NCBI GenBank assembly: GCA_015660815.1
Contig: JACSDF010000011.1
Coordinates: 1 to 33,948 of the forward strand
Source of the DNA: Actinomycetota bacterium
GTDB lineage: Bacteria; Actinomycetota; Actinomycetes; Nanopelagicales; Nanopelagicaceae
Direction of reading: 5' to 3'
Length of the DNA stretch: 33,948 bases
The position numbers and the translations under genes are program-made. The first letter of the stretch is position 1. Each line of letters opens with the position of its first letter. The notes under the pieces were generated by a model. That model did no database searches, was not told the DNA's origin, and was given only the letters and a program-made list of their open reading frames with translations. This document shows, in pieces, positions 4,387 through 33,948 of the stretch.

Positions 4387-4845
4387 TTAGCCGTAGGTGT
4401 CTCTTGGGCCTCTAGCGTTGCGGATTGTTCGAATCCCTTTTTTCCAGGTGGGTCCATGAGGGCCTATAAATATCAGTTTTTCAACCGTTGCCCCTGAAGG
4501 GTCCTTTTGGATTGTGGCCAGTAACTGTGTCGCTACTAAAGAGAGTTGAACGGCCCAGGCTGTGGATGAGCTTTGAATAGTTAGCACCCCGTTTGAAATT
4601 GAGATGGGTGTTGCGTGTTGGCTGATTTCAACTCCAACAATCTGGGGCCATGTAATAAATAAATTTCCCTCAGCTAATCCACTGTCCCACTCGCGCTCTG
4701 CGATGAGATTGTTTAGAACTCCACCAATTAACTCTGGATCACCCGGTTGTCCAACGCGTTGAGTCGGCGCAGGTTTATTTTTCTTTCGGATTACACCCGT
4801 TTTAAAACTATTAAACAAATCTAGAGCTAAATCTCGTTTAGCCAT
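4387..4845 (-). CDS. dciA: DciA-like protein (DUF721), probable DnaB helicase loader/partner
   Basis: 152 residues. The family (DUF721) is the widespread bacterial DciA, which helps place the replicative helicase DnaB where no DnaC/DnaI loader exists. The middle (about residues 45-115) has the KH-like DUF721 core with the pattern FITWPQIVG followed by the HATP region; the C-terminal tail ends in RGPRDTYG, typical of actinobacterial members located between recF and gyrB. The N-terminal 40 residues are basic and probably unstructured. The ATG overlaps the recF stop by one base (TAATG), so translation is coupled. The assignment rests on tail motif and position; the helicase role comes from family knowledge. 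Confidence 0.88.
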   Translation of the reverse strand: MAKRDLALDLFNSFKTGVIRKKNKPAPTQRVGQPGDPELIGGVLNNLIAEREWDSGLAEGNLFITWPQIVGVEISQHATPISISNGVLTIQSSSTAWAVQLSLVATQLLATIQKDPSGATVEKLIFIGPHGPTWKKGIRTIRNARGPRDTYG

Positions 4846-5953: not shown

Positions 5954-7084
5954 TTAAGAGGCGTAGCGCATAGGCATTAACAAATATCGGTAATTTTCAA
6001 TCAGTGCACCATCTTTGTCGCTCTTGCCCATTAAAATCGCTGGTTTGTTCGGTCCGGTAAATGAGATTTGAACAAATTTTGTCCCTACCGCTGTTAAACC
6101 GTCGGCTAGAAATGTTGGGTTGAAGGCGATGGATATCGCTTCTCCAGTTAAGAGGATTTCAATAACTTCGGTGGCTTGAGCTTCTTCACCCGCACCGGCC
6201 TCTAATGAGAGCGAGTTGTTATTAAAATCTAGGCGAAGTGGAACGGTTTTGTCTGTTACCAGCGCTACTCGTTTAACGGAATCTAGAAGAGTTGCTACGT
6301 CTATAAGTGCCGTAGTTGTAACTTCTTGTGGGAGTAAATGGCGATAAGGAGGGAAGGTTCCATCTAACATGCGAGATGTCATTGTTTTACCGTCGCTAGC
6401 AAAGCCTGCTAATCGATCATTGCTTGTGTTTGGAGCGAATGAAACTGAAACGTTTTTAGTTCCAGTTAAAGATTTTGCTGCATCGGCGATTGTTCGTGCT
6501 CGTAGAAGCGCAGTTGTGGAAAAATTAGGAGTTGTTGGCTCCCATTGAATCTCTCTAACTGCTAATCGATATCTATCGGTGGCAGCTAATGTGACGGTTT
6601 CAGCATTAACTTCAATGTGTACACCCGTCAGGGTTGGAAGCGAATCATCTCGGCCTGCCGCAATAGCCACTTGAGCAACTGCGGTCGCAAATGCTTCGCT
6701 GGTTATAACCCCGGTTGTATCAGGTAGCTCTGGAAGGTTTGGATACTCATCCACCGACAATGTTGGAAGTGTAAATTTTGCACTGCCGCTGGTTACTAAA
6801 ACGCGTGTTCCCTCAAGCTCGAAGGTGATTGGTTTATTAGGCAAAGAGCGCGAAATCTCCGCAAGTAACCTTCCTGGCACTAATACCTTCCCACTCTCTT
6901 TAATCTCTGCATGAAAGTGCGATTTACTAGCGGTCTCTAAATCCGACGCCGACAAATAAACTTGATCGCCCGTTGCATCAATAACAATGCCTAATAACTC
7001 TGTTTTTATAGGTCGTGTTGAAAGGCTCCTTGATACCCAGTTAACCCCATCAACTAAAACAGCCTGCTCAACGGTGAACTTCAT
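5954..7084 (-). CDS. dnaN: DNA polymerase III beta subunit (sliding clamp)
   Basis: Ring clamp that tethers the replicative polymerase, 376 residues, family-normal. The start is placed at the ATG at 7084 (MKFTVEQAVL) because GGAG lies six bases upstream. A longer reading from a TTG at 7096 is possible but that codon sits in front of the same Shine-Dalgarno sequence and adds only four residues. The C-terminal end YRYLLMPMR matches the conserved clamp terminus (family LMPMR). Its leader is the oriC region; a TATATA-rich stretch at 7121-7140 may hold the promoter. Confidence 0.98.
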   Translation of the reverse strand: MKFTVEQAVLVDGVNWVSRSLSTRPIKTELLGIVIDATGDQVYLSASDLETASKSHFHAEIKESGKVLVPGRLLAEISRSLPNKPITFELEGTRVLVTSGSAKFTLPTLSVDEYPNLPELPDTTGVITSEAFATAVAQVAIAAGRDDSLPTLTGVHIEVNAETVTLAATDRYRLAVREIQWEPTTPNFSTTALLRARTIADAAKSLTGTKNVSVSFAPNTSNDRLAGFASDGKTMTSRMLDGTFPPYRHLLPQEVTTTALIDVATLLDSVKRVALVTDKTVPLRLDFNNNSLSLEAGAGEEAQATEVIEILLTGEAISIAFNPTFLADGLTAVGTKFVQISFTGPNKPAILMGKSDKDGALIENYRYLLMPMRYAS

Positions 7085-7396
7085 AACGCTCTCCAATTCA
7101 GTGAAAGGTTCGTTTCACATCTAGATCTATATATATAAAGGTAGTCGTAGTAACCACAGGGATTTACTGTGGAGAAAACATAAACCCCCTGCTCAAAGCG
7201 GAGTGTGGGGAGGGATAACATGTGGAGAAAAACAGAAAAATTGTGGATAACTCGTGTAAACATCGACCTAAACACTCTCCCCCCACATAAAACCAGCCCT
7301 GTTACCCACATAATCAACGAAAAACTCCACTGTTGTCCACAACTTATCCACAGTTGGGGGCAAGTTCACAAAAGATAAGGATGGCCTCCACAGCGA
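7085..7396. other. likely oriC (dnaN-dnaA spacer with DnaA boxes)
   Basis: This 312-base spacer is the only long gene-free stretch. DnaA-box-like 9-mers (consensus TTATCCACA): 7344-7352 perfect; 7333-7341 TTGTCCACA; 7302-7310 TTACCCACA; on the other strand 7242-7250 perfect, 7221-7229 and 7168-7176 (TGTGGAGAA). The pair at 7333 and 7344 is spaced 11 bases start to start. An AT-rich run at 7119-7142 near dnaN could be the unwinding element or the dnaN promoter. In most Actinobacteria the origin lies in this same spacer. Nothing else is seen apart from an inverted repeat GTGAAA-N6-TTTCAC at 7101-7118. Confidence 0.85.
7119..7142 (-). promoter_or_regulatory. AT-rich element: dnaN promoter and/or origin unwinding site
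   Basis: The stretch includes AGATCTATATATATAA. On the minus strand it reads as TATATATAGATCT upstream of dnaN. The 12-mer AGATCTATATAT recurs in front of trxA. Its position next to the DnaA boxes also fits a DNA unwinding element; sequence alone cannot separate the two. Confidence 0.4.
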
Positions 7397-8803: not shown

Positions 8804-9073
8804 GCGAGACCTCTCTGATATCCACAGGGTTATCCACAACCTGTGGTCTAAACCTCAGGTTGAGCCCTAAAAACTCCCTAAACCAGGAAAACCTGTGGAG
8901 AGAGAGGAAAAGTAGAGCGAAAAGGTAAAAATAGCAACTAGTTATCCACAGCACAAGAGGCGGGTAAAGGGTGGAGTTGAGTTTGACCCGCTTATCCCCA
9001 GACCTCTACCGTTACACCCTCGCTTCCCCCGTATTTCTGACCGCACGAATTTTATAGTTCTTAGGAGCCTCAC
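8804..9073. promoter_or_regulatory. dnaA/rpmH divergent promoter region with DnaA boxes
   Basis: 270 bases between the divergent dnaA and rpmH. DnaA-box-like sites: 8830-8838 TTATCCACA, 8818-8826 ATATCCACA, 8942-8950 TTATCCACA, 8992-9000 TTATCCCCA. The first two end 15-35 bases before the dnaA GTG. A weak rpmH promoter is TTGACC (8983-8988) with TACCGT (9007-9012), spacer 18. The region may belong to a bipartite origin or serve dnaA autoregulation. Confidence 0.65.
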
Positions 9074-28883: not shown

Positions 28884-28890
28884 ATTGGAC

Positions 28891-29220
28891 ATGTCCACCC
28901 TACTCCCACACGCCGAGACCTTCTCTGTGACCGAGGCCGCCGAACGTGGTTTGCCCTCTGTTATACGCAGCGCTAACGCTGGCACAGATTTTGTCATTGA
29001 GCGATACGGCAAGCCACAAGCTGTCATAGTTGGAATTGAGCGCATCACAAAACTTGAGGAACTTGAGCGCGATCTCCAGAGTGCAGCATTAGTCCTAAGT
29101 CGTGTTGCCACTGACAACGGCAACCGCACCGACATTGATGCGGTCATCAAGCATTTTGGATTTGATCCAGCGGAACTTCGCGCAGAAGCGGCTACTGAGT
29201 TCGTAACCTCTCAAAATTAA
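28891..29220 (+). CDS. Phd/YefM-family antitoxin
   Basis: 109 residues from ATG 28891; a TTG two codons earlier is less likely. The N-terminal half (FSVTEAAERGLPSVIRSAN, then FVIERYGKPQAVIVGIERI) is the Phd/YefM DNA-binding fold. The C-terminal half, from about residue 60, is the predicted toxin-binding part and is long for the family. It is followed 36 bases later by a RelE-like toxin, the usual antitoxin-first order. A palindromic operator sits in its promoter. Not part of the conserved origin block. Confidence 0.85.
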   Translation: MSTLLPHAETFSVTEAAERGLPSVIRSANAGTDFVIERYGKPQAVIVGIERITKLEELERDLQSAALVLSRVATDNGNRTDIDAVIKHFGFDPAELRAEAATEFVTSQN

Positions 29221-30770: not shown

Positions 30771-33215
30771 ATGTCAGCAGTGCCAAGCAGAGCAAAAATC
30801 GTCATTATCGGCGGCGGCGTTGGCGGAACCTCTGTTGCGTATCATTTAGCCGAACTTGGCGAGAAAGATGTAGTTCTCCTAGATCGAAATGAATTAACTA
30901 GCGGCTCTACTTTTCATAGCGCCGGTCTAGTGGGTCAACTGCGTGCCGATCCAACCCTGACGTTAATGAATATGCACTCCGTAGATTTATATCGAAAGCT
31001 CCAAGCCACCGACACTCCACCAAGCTGGCGCGAGTGCGGCAGCATTAAATTGGCATCTACACCCGAGCGCATGCAAGAGATTCGCCGCCAAATTGGCTGG
31101 GCCAAGACTTTTGGTCTGGATTTACAAGAGATCTCACCTCAAGAGGCCCAGAATTTATTTCCACTTATCGATTTAGATGGTGTTGTTGGTGCTTGTTACA
31201 TGGCCTCTGATGGTCAAGTAGATCCTTCGCAGTTAGCGATGGCGCTAGCAGCAGGTGCACGCAAAAACGGAGTGCAGATATTTACCCATACGCGCGTGTT
31301 AGAAATTAAAACAATGAAGGGTCGAGTCAGTAGTGTCGTCACCGATAAAGGTGAGATTGAATGCGAGATAGTCGTTAACTGTGGCGGGATGTACGCACCA
31401 CAGATTGGCCGAATGGTTGACGTACGAATCCCCATTGTTCCAATGAGTCATCAATATTTAATTACCGATAACTTTTTGGCCGACGATGCACCATTCTTGC
31501 CATCACTGCGTGACCCAGACAACCTTATCTACTTCCGTCAAGAGGTATCGGGCTTGCTAATGGGTGGGTATGAGAGAAACTCAAAGGCTTGGTCGGCTGA
31601 TTACAATAATGTGGATGATATTCCAGCAAACTTCAACAATACCTTGCTGCCAGAAGACTGGGATCGTTTTTACGATATCGCCGAGGCTTCGCAAAAACGC
31701 GTACCGAAAATGGCCGAAGTGGGCATTAAAAACTTTATTAACGGTCCCGAAGGATTTACTCCCGACAATGAGTTCTGCTTAGGTGAAACTTCGGTCGGTG
31801 GATTTTTCGTTGCAGCTGGTTTCTGTGCCCATGGGATCGCTGGCGCTGGTGGAATTGGAAAAGTCGTTGCTGAATGGATCGTTGCCGGCGAACCAACCAT
31901 GGATTTATGGCACATGGATATTAAACGCTTTGGTGCATCCTATGAATCACCTGATTTTACTTTGCAACGCATCACTGAAAACTATGAAGAGTATTACGAC
32001 ATTCATTACCCTGGTGAAGAACGAAAGAGCGCACGACCAAAATTCACATCCCCTGTCTATGACTGGCACAGCGTTAATGGCGCGGTTTTTGGTGAAAAAG
32101 CCTCGTGGGAGCGCGTTAATTACTACTCAACTAATAGCGGCGATGAAGCCCTACGCCCTATTGGGTGGCTCGGAAAAAACTGGTCACCTGCTGTCCAGGT
32201 AGAGCACCATGCAACACGAAACGCTGCAGGTTTATTTGATGAGTCGAGTTTTGCTAAAGCGCGCATTAGCGGAGCCAGAGCCGCTGAATTTCTAAATTTT
32301 GTATGTGCCAATAACGTAGTTAAAGGGGTTGGTAAAACGGTTTACACCCAAGCACTTAATTCAAAGGGCGGAATCGAATCTGATTACACCGTTACACAAA
32401 CTGGAGACGACGAGTTCATGATTGTGACGGGCACGGCATTTGCAACTCATGATTTTGGATGGCTAGAAAAAATCCGTCGTGAATTTAATTTTGATGGAGT
32501 TGAGATTACAAATATCACTCGCGAATTAGCCTGCTTTGGAATCATGGGACCAAATTCCCGTGCGATTTTGCAATCGCTGACGGTTTCCGATTTGAACCAC
32601 ACAGCTTTTCCATTCATGACTTCTCAAGAAATTACTCTTGCTGGCATAAATGTTCGCGCAACGCGGATTACATATGTTGGCGAACTCGGCTGGGAAATTT
32701 ACGCACCCGTTGCAGATGGACTAAATCTGTGGAAAGAGATAATCAATGCTGGAAAAGATTTGGGTTTAATCCCCTGCGGTTATCGCGCAATTGAATCTTT
32801 ACGCTTAGAAAAAGGTTATCGGGCGTGGGCGGGTGAGATTAATACTGAAACTAATCCTTACGAAGCGGGCCTTGGCTTCGCAGTTTCACTCAAGAAGGAA
32901 AACTTTCACGGAAAAGCCGCAGCGGTAGCAGCTAAGGAAAATCAAAGAAGAAAACTGGTTGCAATTACTTTCGATGACATAACGTCGGTTCCCTTTGGTT
33001 CTGAACCGATTCGAATTGATAATAAAATAGTTGGACGTATTAAATCTGGTGGCCAGGGATACACAATCAAGAAAGCCATTGCCTATGCCTACCTCCCAGT
33101 TGAAAACTCTGAGCCAGGCACGGCCGTTGATGTTGAGCTCTTCGGTATGTGGTCTGCCGGAGTAATCGCCGCGGAGCCCCTTTTTGATCCAGACAATGCT
33201 CGAATTCGTGCGTAA
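30771..33215 (+). CDS. dimethylglycine/sarcosine dehydrogenase-family flavoprotein with GcvT domain
   Basis: 814 residues from ATG 30771; GTG 30765 and 30780 are alternatives. Oxidises an N-methyl group and, by family analogy, passes the methylene unit to tetrahydrofolate. DAO FAD domain about 8-380: GGGVGGTSVAYHL, then TSGSTFHSAGL with His49 at the place of covalent flavin attachment. A linker domain follows to about 435; GcvT domain about 475-700 (GGIESDYTVT near 533) and GcvT C-terminal barrel about 725-810. The exact methylated amine is not decided by sequence. Only 13 bases from the divergent choline kinase start, so its promoter may lie within that gene. Confidence 0.87.
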   Translation: MSAVPSRAKIVIIGGGVGGTSVAYHLAELGEKDVVLLDRNELTSGSTFHSAGLVGQLRADPTLTLMNMHSVDLYRKLQATDTPPSWRECGSIKLASTPERMQEIRRQIGWAKTFGLDLQEISPQEAQNLFPLIDLDGVVGACYMASDGQVDPSQLAMALAAGARKNGVQIFTHTRVLEIKTMKGRVSSVVTDKGEIECEIVVNCGGMYAPQIGRMVDVRIPIVPMSHQYLITDNFLADDAPFLPSLRDPDNLIYFRQEVSGLLMGGYERNSKAWSADYNNVDDIPANFNNTLLPEDWDRFYDIAEASQKRVPKMAEVGIKNFINGPEGFTPDNEFCLGETSVGGFFVAAGFCAHGIAGAGGIGKVVAEWIVAGEPTMDLWHMDIKRFGASYESPDFTLQRITENYEEYYDIHYPGEERKSARPKFTSPVYDWHSVNGAVFGEKASWERVNYYSTNSGDEALRPIGWLGKNWSPAVQVEHHATRNAAGLFDESSFAKARISGARAAEFLNFVCANNVVKGVGKTVYTQALNSKGGIESDYTVTQTGDDEFMIVTGTAFATHDFGWLEKIRREFNFDGVEITNITRELACFGIMGPNSRAILQSLTVSDLNHTAFPFMTSQEITLAGINVRATRITYVGELGWEIYAPVADGLNLWKEIINAGKDLGLIPCGYRAIESLRLEKGYRAWAGEINTETNPYEAGLGFAVSLKKENFHGKAAAVAAKENQRRKLVAITFDDITSVPFGSEPIRIDNKIVGRIKSGGQGYTIKKAIAYAYLPVENSEPGTAVDVELFGMWSAGVIAAEPLFDPDNARIRA

Positions 33216-33487
33216 TCTCAGATTGTAAGATTTACAAATATTCTTTACTCCACAGGTCTGTGTGTATAGAAATCGCCTCTGACCTGCACCTTTGCAGAAA
33301 AGAGCGCTACATTGATGGCTTATCCACAGTCCATCCACCGATTCCTGCACAGAAATTTAGGCTTATCCACCCCCTTGTCCACACCTTATCCCCATGGCCT
33401 CGAAGAGATTCTCGCGTGCGATAGGGGCTCACATCTAGGTTGAGCACCGTAAGTCAGGACGTCAGTGGTTAATGGGAGGGTATACGT
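33216..33487. promoter_or_regulatory. dnaB leader with DnaA-box cluster
   Basis: 272 bases without genes. DnaA-box-like sites all in one orientation: 33320-33328 TTATCCACA, 33363-33371 TTATCCACC, 33375-33383 TTGTCCACA, 33386-33394 TTATCCCCA. The last three are spaced 12 and 11 bases, and TTGTCCACA-N2-TTATCC is the same arrangement as in oriC (7333-7352). GGGAGGG at 33474-33480 is the dnaB Shine-Dalgarno sequence. Confidence 0.7.
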
Positions 33488-33948
33488 GTGAGCATCGCAG
33501 AACTTCCCAACAATCGGACATCGCGCGATCTGAGTATCTCATCCATTGGTACCGAATTCGAACGCACGCCACCTCAAGATTTAATCGCAGAGCAATCAGT
33601 TCTTGGCGGAATGTTGTTATCGAAAGATGCAATCGCCGATGTAATTGAAATTATTCGCGATCGTGATTTTTATCGTCCGGCGCATGAGTTAATTTATGAT
33701 GCGATTATCGATTTGTATGGCCGCGGCGAGCCCGCAGATGCAGTTACGGTTTCAGCAGAGCTAACTAAGCGCGGAGATATCGCTCGTGCAGGTGGCGCGC
33801 CATATCTACATACACTCATCTCATCGGTACCCACGGCGGCCAATGCGGGTTACTACGCAAAGATTGTTCGCGAGCATGCAATCATGCGCCGATTAGTTGA
33901 AGCTGGCACAAAGATTGTGCAGCTCGGTTATACATCCGAAGGTGAAGT
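33488..33948 (+). CDS. dnaB: replicative DNA helicase DnaB (N-terminal part, cut by window edge)
   Basis: Hexameric fork helicase; 153 residues are present from a GTG at 33488 with GGGAGGG seven bases upstream. The N-terminal DnaB domain is clear: PPQDLIAEQSVLGGMLLS, then FYRPAHELIYDAII and GGAPYLHTLISSVPTAAN. The ATPase half lies beyond the window. DciA, encoded in the same window, is its likely loader. Its spacer carries DnaA boxes, hinting at control by DnaA. Confidence 0.96.
   Translation, partial: MSIAELPNNRTSRDLSISSIGTEFERTPPQDLIAEQSVLGGMLLSKDAIADVIEIIRDRDFYRPAHELIYDAIIDLYGRGEPADAVTVSAELTKRGDIARAGGAPYLHTLISSVPTAANAGYYAKIVREHAIMRRLVEAGTKIVQLGYTSEGE

Follow-up and report, generated by a model that had tools for sequence, protein, structure and literature searches.

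A conserved, helically phased array of DnaA boxes upstream of dnaB in Nanopelagicales, a probable DnaA-responsive control region of the helicase gene

Introduction

How the supply of helicase is matched to initiation in bacteria is, to our knowledge, not well understood. A locus in a 33,948-nucleotide stretch of actinobacterial DNA (hereafter the window) raises the question of whether the initiator DnaA itself may govern that supply. A first-pass annotation, made from the letters of the window alone, had pointed to a cluster of DnaA-box-like 9-mers in front of dnaB, had titled it a copy of the box pair at oriC, and had offered three functions for it, namely DnaA control of the helicase gene, titration of DnaA, or an auxiliary origin element. 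Here we describe the array in the window, its conservation among relatives, across the class and outside it, and its likeness to other DnaA-box clusters, and weigh these functions against one another.

Results

As contig C27, the window belongs to a genome of 1.585 Mb in 64 contigs. Its DnaB is closest to records of uncultured actinobacterium, Planktophila and Nanopelagicaceae, and the host is a Planktophila-like freshwater actinobacterium. Along with the genes of Table 1, the window holds, by profile, a RecF/SMC-type gene and the genes for single-strand-binding protein and L9. The dnaB leader is a 272-bp spacer following a same-strand FAD oxidoreductase/GcvT-like gene that ends at 33215. Between rplI and dnaB lies a Phd/YefM-like antitoxin-type ORF (28885-29220) whose profile score is under the curated cut-offs. 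At 33214-33231, an inverted repeat, ATCTCA...TGAGA, is followed by an A-rich stretch; six of the 26 aligned leaders have a perfect copy of the repeat, the window an imperfect one.

Table 1. Features of the window, with their state in the 26 aligned leaders where applicable
Feature	Position	Strand	Remark
DciA-family gene	4387-4845		by profile
dnaN	5954-7096	-	by profile
oriC boxes in the dnaN-dnaA spacer (comparison)	7168-7352		
dnaA	7397-8839	-	by profile; helix-turn-helix domain present
Boxes at the dnaA 5' end and in the adjoining spacer (comparison)	8818-9000	+	
Upstream box-like site, TACTCCACA	33246-33254	+	2 mismatches; TCATCCACA similarly placed in L001, L013 and L020
DnaA box, slot 1, TTATCCACA	33320-33328	+	exact; at most 1 mismatch in 19/26
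Degenerate slot 2, CCATCCACC	33331-33339	+	3 mismatches; 11 bp after slot 1; 2-3 mismatches in 21/26
Degenerate slot 3, TCCTGCACA	33343-33351	+	3 mismatches; TTGTGCACA or TTGTACACA in 9/26
DnaA box, slot 4, TTATCCACC	33363-33371	+	1 mismatch; identical sub-consensus box in 17/26
DnaA box, slot 5, TTGTCCACA	33375-33383	+	1 mismatch; 3-bp gap after slot 4 in 26/26
DnaA box, slot 6, TTATCCCCA	33386-33394	+	1 mismatch; 2-bp gap after slot 5; TTATCCCCA in 13/26
Candidate -10 element, TAGGTT	33436-33441	+	TA(A/G)(A/G)TT hexamer after the array in 18/26
Element before the ribosome site, CGTCAGTG	33460-33467	+	TGTCAGTG in most aligned relatives
Probable ribosome-binding site of dnaB, GGGAGG	33474-33479	+	
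dnaB, replicative helicase, 5' part (runs beyond the window)	33488-33948	+	by profile; GTG start at 33488

The four co-oriented boxes at 33320-33394 were confirmed; all are on the + strand, 94-168 bp before the dnaB start. In an alignment of 26 leaders, they belong to a ladder whose six slots start at 0, 11, 23, 43, 55 and 66-67 bp, of which those at 33331 and 33343 are degenerate, slot 2 being possibly a weak or vestigial box. The alignment was hand-picked and comprises the window and 25 of 42 Nanopelagicales-like loci (L001-L029 minus L004, L016, L023 and L027, with L030-L042 also left out); in the left-out loci L016 and L023, a pair of boxes at a distance of 33 bp takes the place of the ladder. 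The 54 slot columns, out of 272, contain 18 of the 38 invariant columns of the leader.

Sites with at most one mismatch number 23 across the window versus 7.48 expected (sd 2.35), with 14 as the highest of 100 shuffles. Among 20,000 first-order Markov sequences derived from the 272-bp spacer, none had at least four co-oriented sites and one had at least three. Genome-wide, single boxes show no excess (361 versus 340 for the reversed motif at up to one mismatch, and 18 versus 10 for exact boxes), and the signal is therefore the clustering.

All 41 usable Nanopelagicales-like leaders (L001-L042; the counts among relatives leave out L035 and L068, whose leaders are short) carry at least two sites, and in 41 of 41 the leader contains the densest 100-bp stretch of its locus. 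Taken as 300 bp each, these leaders contain 146 sites (11.9 per kb), 145 of them on the dnaB strand; the flanks have 33 sites over 210 kb, and the reversed motif occurs 3 times within the leaders. The array is thus kept before dnaB in close relatives, a check named in the first pass that did not refute its proposal. At least two sites by the TTATCCACA rule are also present in 20 of 37 other leaders (L043-L080). Several record titles in this collection look wrong: seven loci titled Bifidobacterium breve (L008, L010, L013, L017, L018, L019 and L024) group with the Nanopelagicales-like loci, and L065, titled Vibrio cholerae, has a box pattern equal to that of the Arthrobacter locus L059.

The array stays with dnaB as its upstream neighbours change. 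For 39 loci (L018, L019 and L035 were skipped), the longest ORF close to the leader falls into one of four groups (11, 20, 6 and 2 loci) with no mutual BLAST matches. The groups comprise an FAD oxidoreductase/GcvT-like gene, as in the window, an L9-like gene, a divergent CorA-type-transporter-like gene and a fourth gene, the three names being assigned by eye, among six of the frames, rather than by profile.

Clusters before dnaB extend across the class. In a draw of 100 leaders with 29 family codes (from 114 further genomes of the class that gave a DnaB hit, 115 including the window's), TTRTCCACA-like sites number at least two in 87 leaders, at least three in 65 and at least four in 38, compared with at least two in 4 and at least three in none for the reversed motif. 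At least one leader with two or more sites was found in 25 of the 29 families, and the 13 leaders with fewer include five of the six f14 leaders and the sole leaders of f10, f2, f7 and f23. In total, 309 sites fall in 40 kb of class leaders (31 for the reversed motif) versus 48 in 231 kb of flanks; 244 of the 309 are on the dnaB strand, and 90 are exact versus 219 with one mismatch. Outside the class, the enrichment is weaker, with at least two sites in 6 of 40 leaders, at least three in 3 of 40, and 23 sites versus 1 reversed in 16 kb; this sample covers 40 of 107 genomes with a hit and 37 family codes, and some of its DnaB matches are weak. The dnaB starts in the class and out-of-class leaders were estimated from the protein match and may be off by tens of bases.

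Pooled once per family, same-strand spacings between boxes gather at 11-13, 20-24, 31-34, 42-45, 53-58 and 64-68 bp, with peaks that hold below 70 bp and scatter beyond. Phasing at 10.95 bp gives a mean cosine of 0.73 (range 0.62-0.83 over 500 draws of one leader per family, 24 families) versus a null maximum of 0.39. Shared ancestry of the slots contributes to this phasing, which therefore speaks for a kept geometry and not for 24 independent inventions. The sub-consensus boxes of slots 4 and 6 are themselves kept (Table 1), a pattern that may be read as selection for weak, cooperative sites.

The likeness to oriC is more limited than first proposed. The starts of slots 5 and 6 are 11 bases apart, as are those of TTGTCCACA (7333-7341) and TTATCCACA (7344-7352) at oriC, but as a kept trait this spacing is mostly local: 23 of the 26 aligned leaders separate the two slots by 3 bp, and the remaining 3, the window among them, by 2 bp. 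Because the 2-bp gap occurs in only these 3 leaders, we reject the notion that the dnaB cluster copies the oriC pair; the flanks, too, are unlike by eye.

Close head-to-tail pairs are nevertheless distributed in a telling way. Four genomes were scanned (those of the window, L015 and L022, and the scaffold genome of L002), with dnaA placed by profile. All 16 pairs with a gap of 2 or 3 bp and up to two mismatches are located at oriC or the dnaA 5' end (8) or in the dnaB leader (8). With up to three mismatches, pairs are found elsewhere too, and their numbers are 16 versus 14 reversed for the 3-bp gap and 11 versus 0 for the 2-bp gap. Six complete genomes of the same genus, one of which is the L022 record again, have 18 of 18 3-bp-gap pairs at oriC/dnaA or in the dnaB leader, versus 7 for the reversed pattern. 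A wider search of 61 genomes of the genus, many of them incomplete, gave pairs in 53 and 103 pairs versus 9 reversed, many of the 103 repeating dnaA-end and dnaB-leader sequences. The pair counts alone are unimpressive, and the evidence is in the location of the pairs. Similar pairs are rare in the genomes of close relatives outside oriC/dnaA and the dnaB leader, which leaves the first-pass proposal standing on this point.

Other pairs exist in more distant genomes; across 27 genomes, 80 pairs (10 reversed) divide into 29 at dnaA/oriC, 19 in the dnaB leader (which has a pair in 13 of the 27), 17 elsewhere up to 150 kb from dnaA, and 15 farther off. Eight of these 17 pairs, from 7 genomes, were placed by hand no more than 200 bp from the 3' end of the match to the cell-division gene crgA. 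Four other close pairs up to 150 kb from dnaA and away from oriC, dnaB and crgA (G037:7466067, G118:3415748, G085:4432084 and G015:1793672) are possibly further DnaA clusters.

The host itself has such a site. On its contig C60 (L230:1637-1668), two exact TTATCCACA boxes 13 bp apart and a weaker, inverted CTCTCCACA (2 mismatches) are located 3' of crgA, in the spacer that separates it from a rhomboid gene. The contig encodes cyclophilin, rhomboid, CrgA, glutamine amidotransferase, PASTA kinase and PP2C, a neighbourhood that presumably matches that of the M. tuberculosis site Rv0010c-Rv0011c. Across the class, crgA spacers were examined in 22 of 28 genomes; in these 22, the 350 bp 3' of crgA contain 51 sites versus 8 reversed, and 15 of the 22 have at least two (1 for the reversed motif), whereas crgA itself, over up to 251 bp per genome, contains none. 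Boxes are absent 3' of crgA in 5 of the 22, and four of these five are in the window's own genus. The cluster downstream of crgA matches a second published mycobacterial DnaA site, Rv0010c-Rv0011c.

Between the array and dnaB, TAGGTT was assigned as a candidate -10 element on the TANNNT rule. Eight of the 26 aligned leaders keep boxes but lack the hexamer. Among leaders, the interval between the last box and the dnaB start differs by more than 100 bp, which fits badly with a rigidly placed activator. A simple scan for sigma-70-type promoters gave none on the dnaB strand and one on the minus strand, no terminator was found, and in a search for structured RNA leaders no Rfam family matched 33100-33948 at E values up to 1.

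The element at 33460-33467 resembles a DNA-damage (PafBC/RecA-NDp) promoter element, though no TANNNT follows at 8 bp. For a PafBC-type promoter in Nanopelagicales the signs are mixed: TGTCAGTG is kept, but TGTCRGTG-N8-TANNNT occurs in 0 of 8 family-f1 leaders scanned. Elsewhere in the class, the PafBC/RecA-NDp-like TGTCRGTG-N8-TANNNT precedes dnaB in L136, L137, L139 and L148, and LexA-like CGAAC-N4-GTTCG palindromes precede it in L107, L166, L167 and L172; both are motif counts made without a chance control. In M. tuberculosis, dnaB is reported to be induced by DNA damage, partly in a PafBC-dependent manner, and to have a putative SOS box (PMC8151990).

Discussion

We consider it likely that the stretch at 33320-33394 is a DnaA-responsive control region of dnaB. 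Its conservation with dnaB, constant orientation, changing neighbours and helical phasing, together with published mycobacterial binding and expression data, argue for DnaA control of the helicase gene, the best supported of the three functions proposed in the first pass. Geometry, motifs, conservation and linkage to dnaB are direct observations, and we infer from mycobacteria that DnaA binding upstream of dnaB and the response of dnaB carry over to the host. The one-sided, head-to-tail ladder has four good boxes (up to six in relatives, weak slots included), mostly sub-consensus, and its spacing at multiples of about 11 bp would set DnaA molecules on one face of the helix, where they could bind cooperatively. 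Since most boxes are weak, occupancy should climb steeply with active (ATP-bound) DnaA, and the ladder may thus sense ATP-DnaA. Transcription of dnaB would then track initiator activity, so that the supply of helicase would be matched to the moment of initiation. By analogy with M. tuberculosis, the effect of DnaA on dnaB is probably activation.

That DnaA bound to the array instead represses dnaB, as a brake, is possible but doubtful. Several bacteria have a dnaA gene under the control of its own product, and DnaA can be an activator or a repressor (review PMC8203912), and in the window a TANNNT-like hexamer at 33239-33244 adjoins the box-like site at 33246-33254; the result with the I282T mutant of M. 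tuberculosis, however, points to activation (PMC7738170). Titration, the second of the proposed functions, is kept as a rival, although we hold it to be unlikely. Here the array would be a datA- or DARS-like site near oriC that sequesters most of all DnaA, or else resets the nucleotide state of the protein, and its placement at dnaB would be incidental. In all 27 genomes measured, dnaB is 20.5-145 kb from dnaA, so that the array is copied early after initiation, and the cluster 3' of crgA, between convergent genes and outside a promoter, would suit titration; in E. coli, the datA and DARS sites have IHF and Fis as partners. An incidental placement agrees poorly with the kept dnaB strand (145 of 146 sites in close relatives, 244 of 309 class-wide), with an array that stays with dnaB as neighbours change, and with boxes that are mostly sub-consensus (90 exact versus 219 one-mismatch in class leaders), and in M. 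tuberculosis weaker binding accompanies a lower dnaB transcript (PMC7738170).

It is very unlikely that a DNA-binding protein other than DnaA recognises the repeats or that they arose by chance. TTATCCACC and TTATCCCCA are off-consensus, but TTACCCACA, TTATCCCCA and TTGTCCACA occur also at oriC/dnaA of the same genome, TTGTCCACA, frequent in high-GC leaders, is listed as the high-affinity box for both M. tuberculosis and S. coelicolor (PMC4285127), and DnaA binds upstream of dnaB in mycobacteria (PMC7738170). Chance is excluded by the random-spacer test (0 of 20,000) and the class-wide leader counts. The third proposed function, an auxiliary origin element at dnaB, we regard as highly improbable. 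The box pair is of the type found at oriC, and the cumulative G-C skew of the window has its minimum at 31,169, near dnaB; yet this measure is uninformative, the minimum in the relative G056 being at 171,988, away from both oriC and dnaB. The cumulative A-T skew, in contrast, has its minimum at 6,938 in the window, beside oriC, with no switch of strand asymmetry at dnaB, and at 204,756 in the 180-kb stretch of G056, inside dnaA, with none at dnaB at 227 kb. The distance between dnaA and dnaB, moreover, varies from 20.5 to 145 kb in the 27 genomes.

Returning to control of dnaB by DnaA, a broader proposal can be made, to which we give even weight for and against: Actinomycetes may have inherited a small, fixed DnaA circuit consisting of oriC, the dnaA 5' end, a weak, phased dnaB ladder that would act as an ATP-DnaA gauge timing helicase synthesis, and a crgA 3' cluster that would act as a promoter-free DnaA sink or switch. 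If so, two of the extra DnaA sites published for mycobacteria would be ancestral features of the class.

Control of dnaB by DnaA is a known kind of site. Its class-wide depth and phased ladder geometry were the subject of no report found in the open-licence papers searched, and a class-wide phased ladder makes the question of helicase supply testable in standard laboratory actinomycetes. Among known clusters outside oriC but near it, those of Streptomyces coelicolor (H69, H24 and D78), of the same class as the host, were reportedly described as titration sites by Smulczyk-Krawczyszyn in 2006.

In Caulobacter crescentus, dnaB belongs to the DnaA regulon, with predicted boxes upstream and DnaA-dependent expression (Hottes 2005, via review PMC8203912). 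The likeness to the window is in the DnaA boxes before dnaB; the phylum is another, the portion of the review consulted describes no ladder, and the high-affinity box of C. crescentus is listed as TGATCCACA. In E. coli, DnaA favours boxes separated by 2-3 bp, and 15 of 16 DnaA-bound regions closely match such a double box (PMC11317965); the ladder of the window has the same gaps. The E. coli double boxes (nrdA, mioC, purH and others) are head-to-tail and control replication-linked genes, as proposed here, but are pairs and not a longer ladder, and dnaB is not named as a target in the part of the study consulted (PMC11317965).

The closest known system is mycobacterial. A DnaA pull-down in M. 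tuberculosis yielded five highly enriched regions, namely oriC, rpmH-dnaA, Rv0057 upstream of dnaB, Rv0010c-Rv0011c and Rv3843c-RVnc0040, homologs of which were found by ChIP-seq in M. smegmatis, and the DnaA mutant I282T, less bound upstream of dnaB, uniquely under-expresses dnaB, a correlative result (PMC7738170). The Rv0057 region and its M. smegmatis homolog share with the window the gene, the protein family, the class and a DnaA site before dnaB; binding was measured there and is predicted here, and the six-slot arrangement is that of Nanopelagicales. Neither class-wide conservation nor helical spacing is described for the mycobacterial dnaB region in the sections of that study consulted, and its authors see no obvious correspondence of the crgA-side region in other bacterial species (PMC7738170). 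The boxes 3' of crgA reported here suggest an ancestry for that region, as the class-wide ladder does for DnaA-bound regions listed in the M. tuberculosis study.
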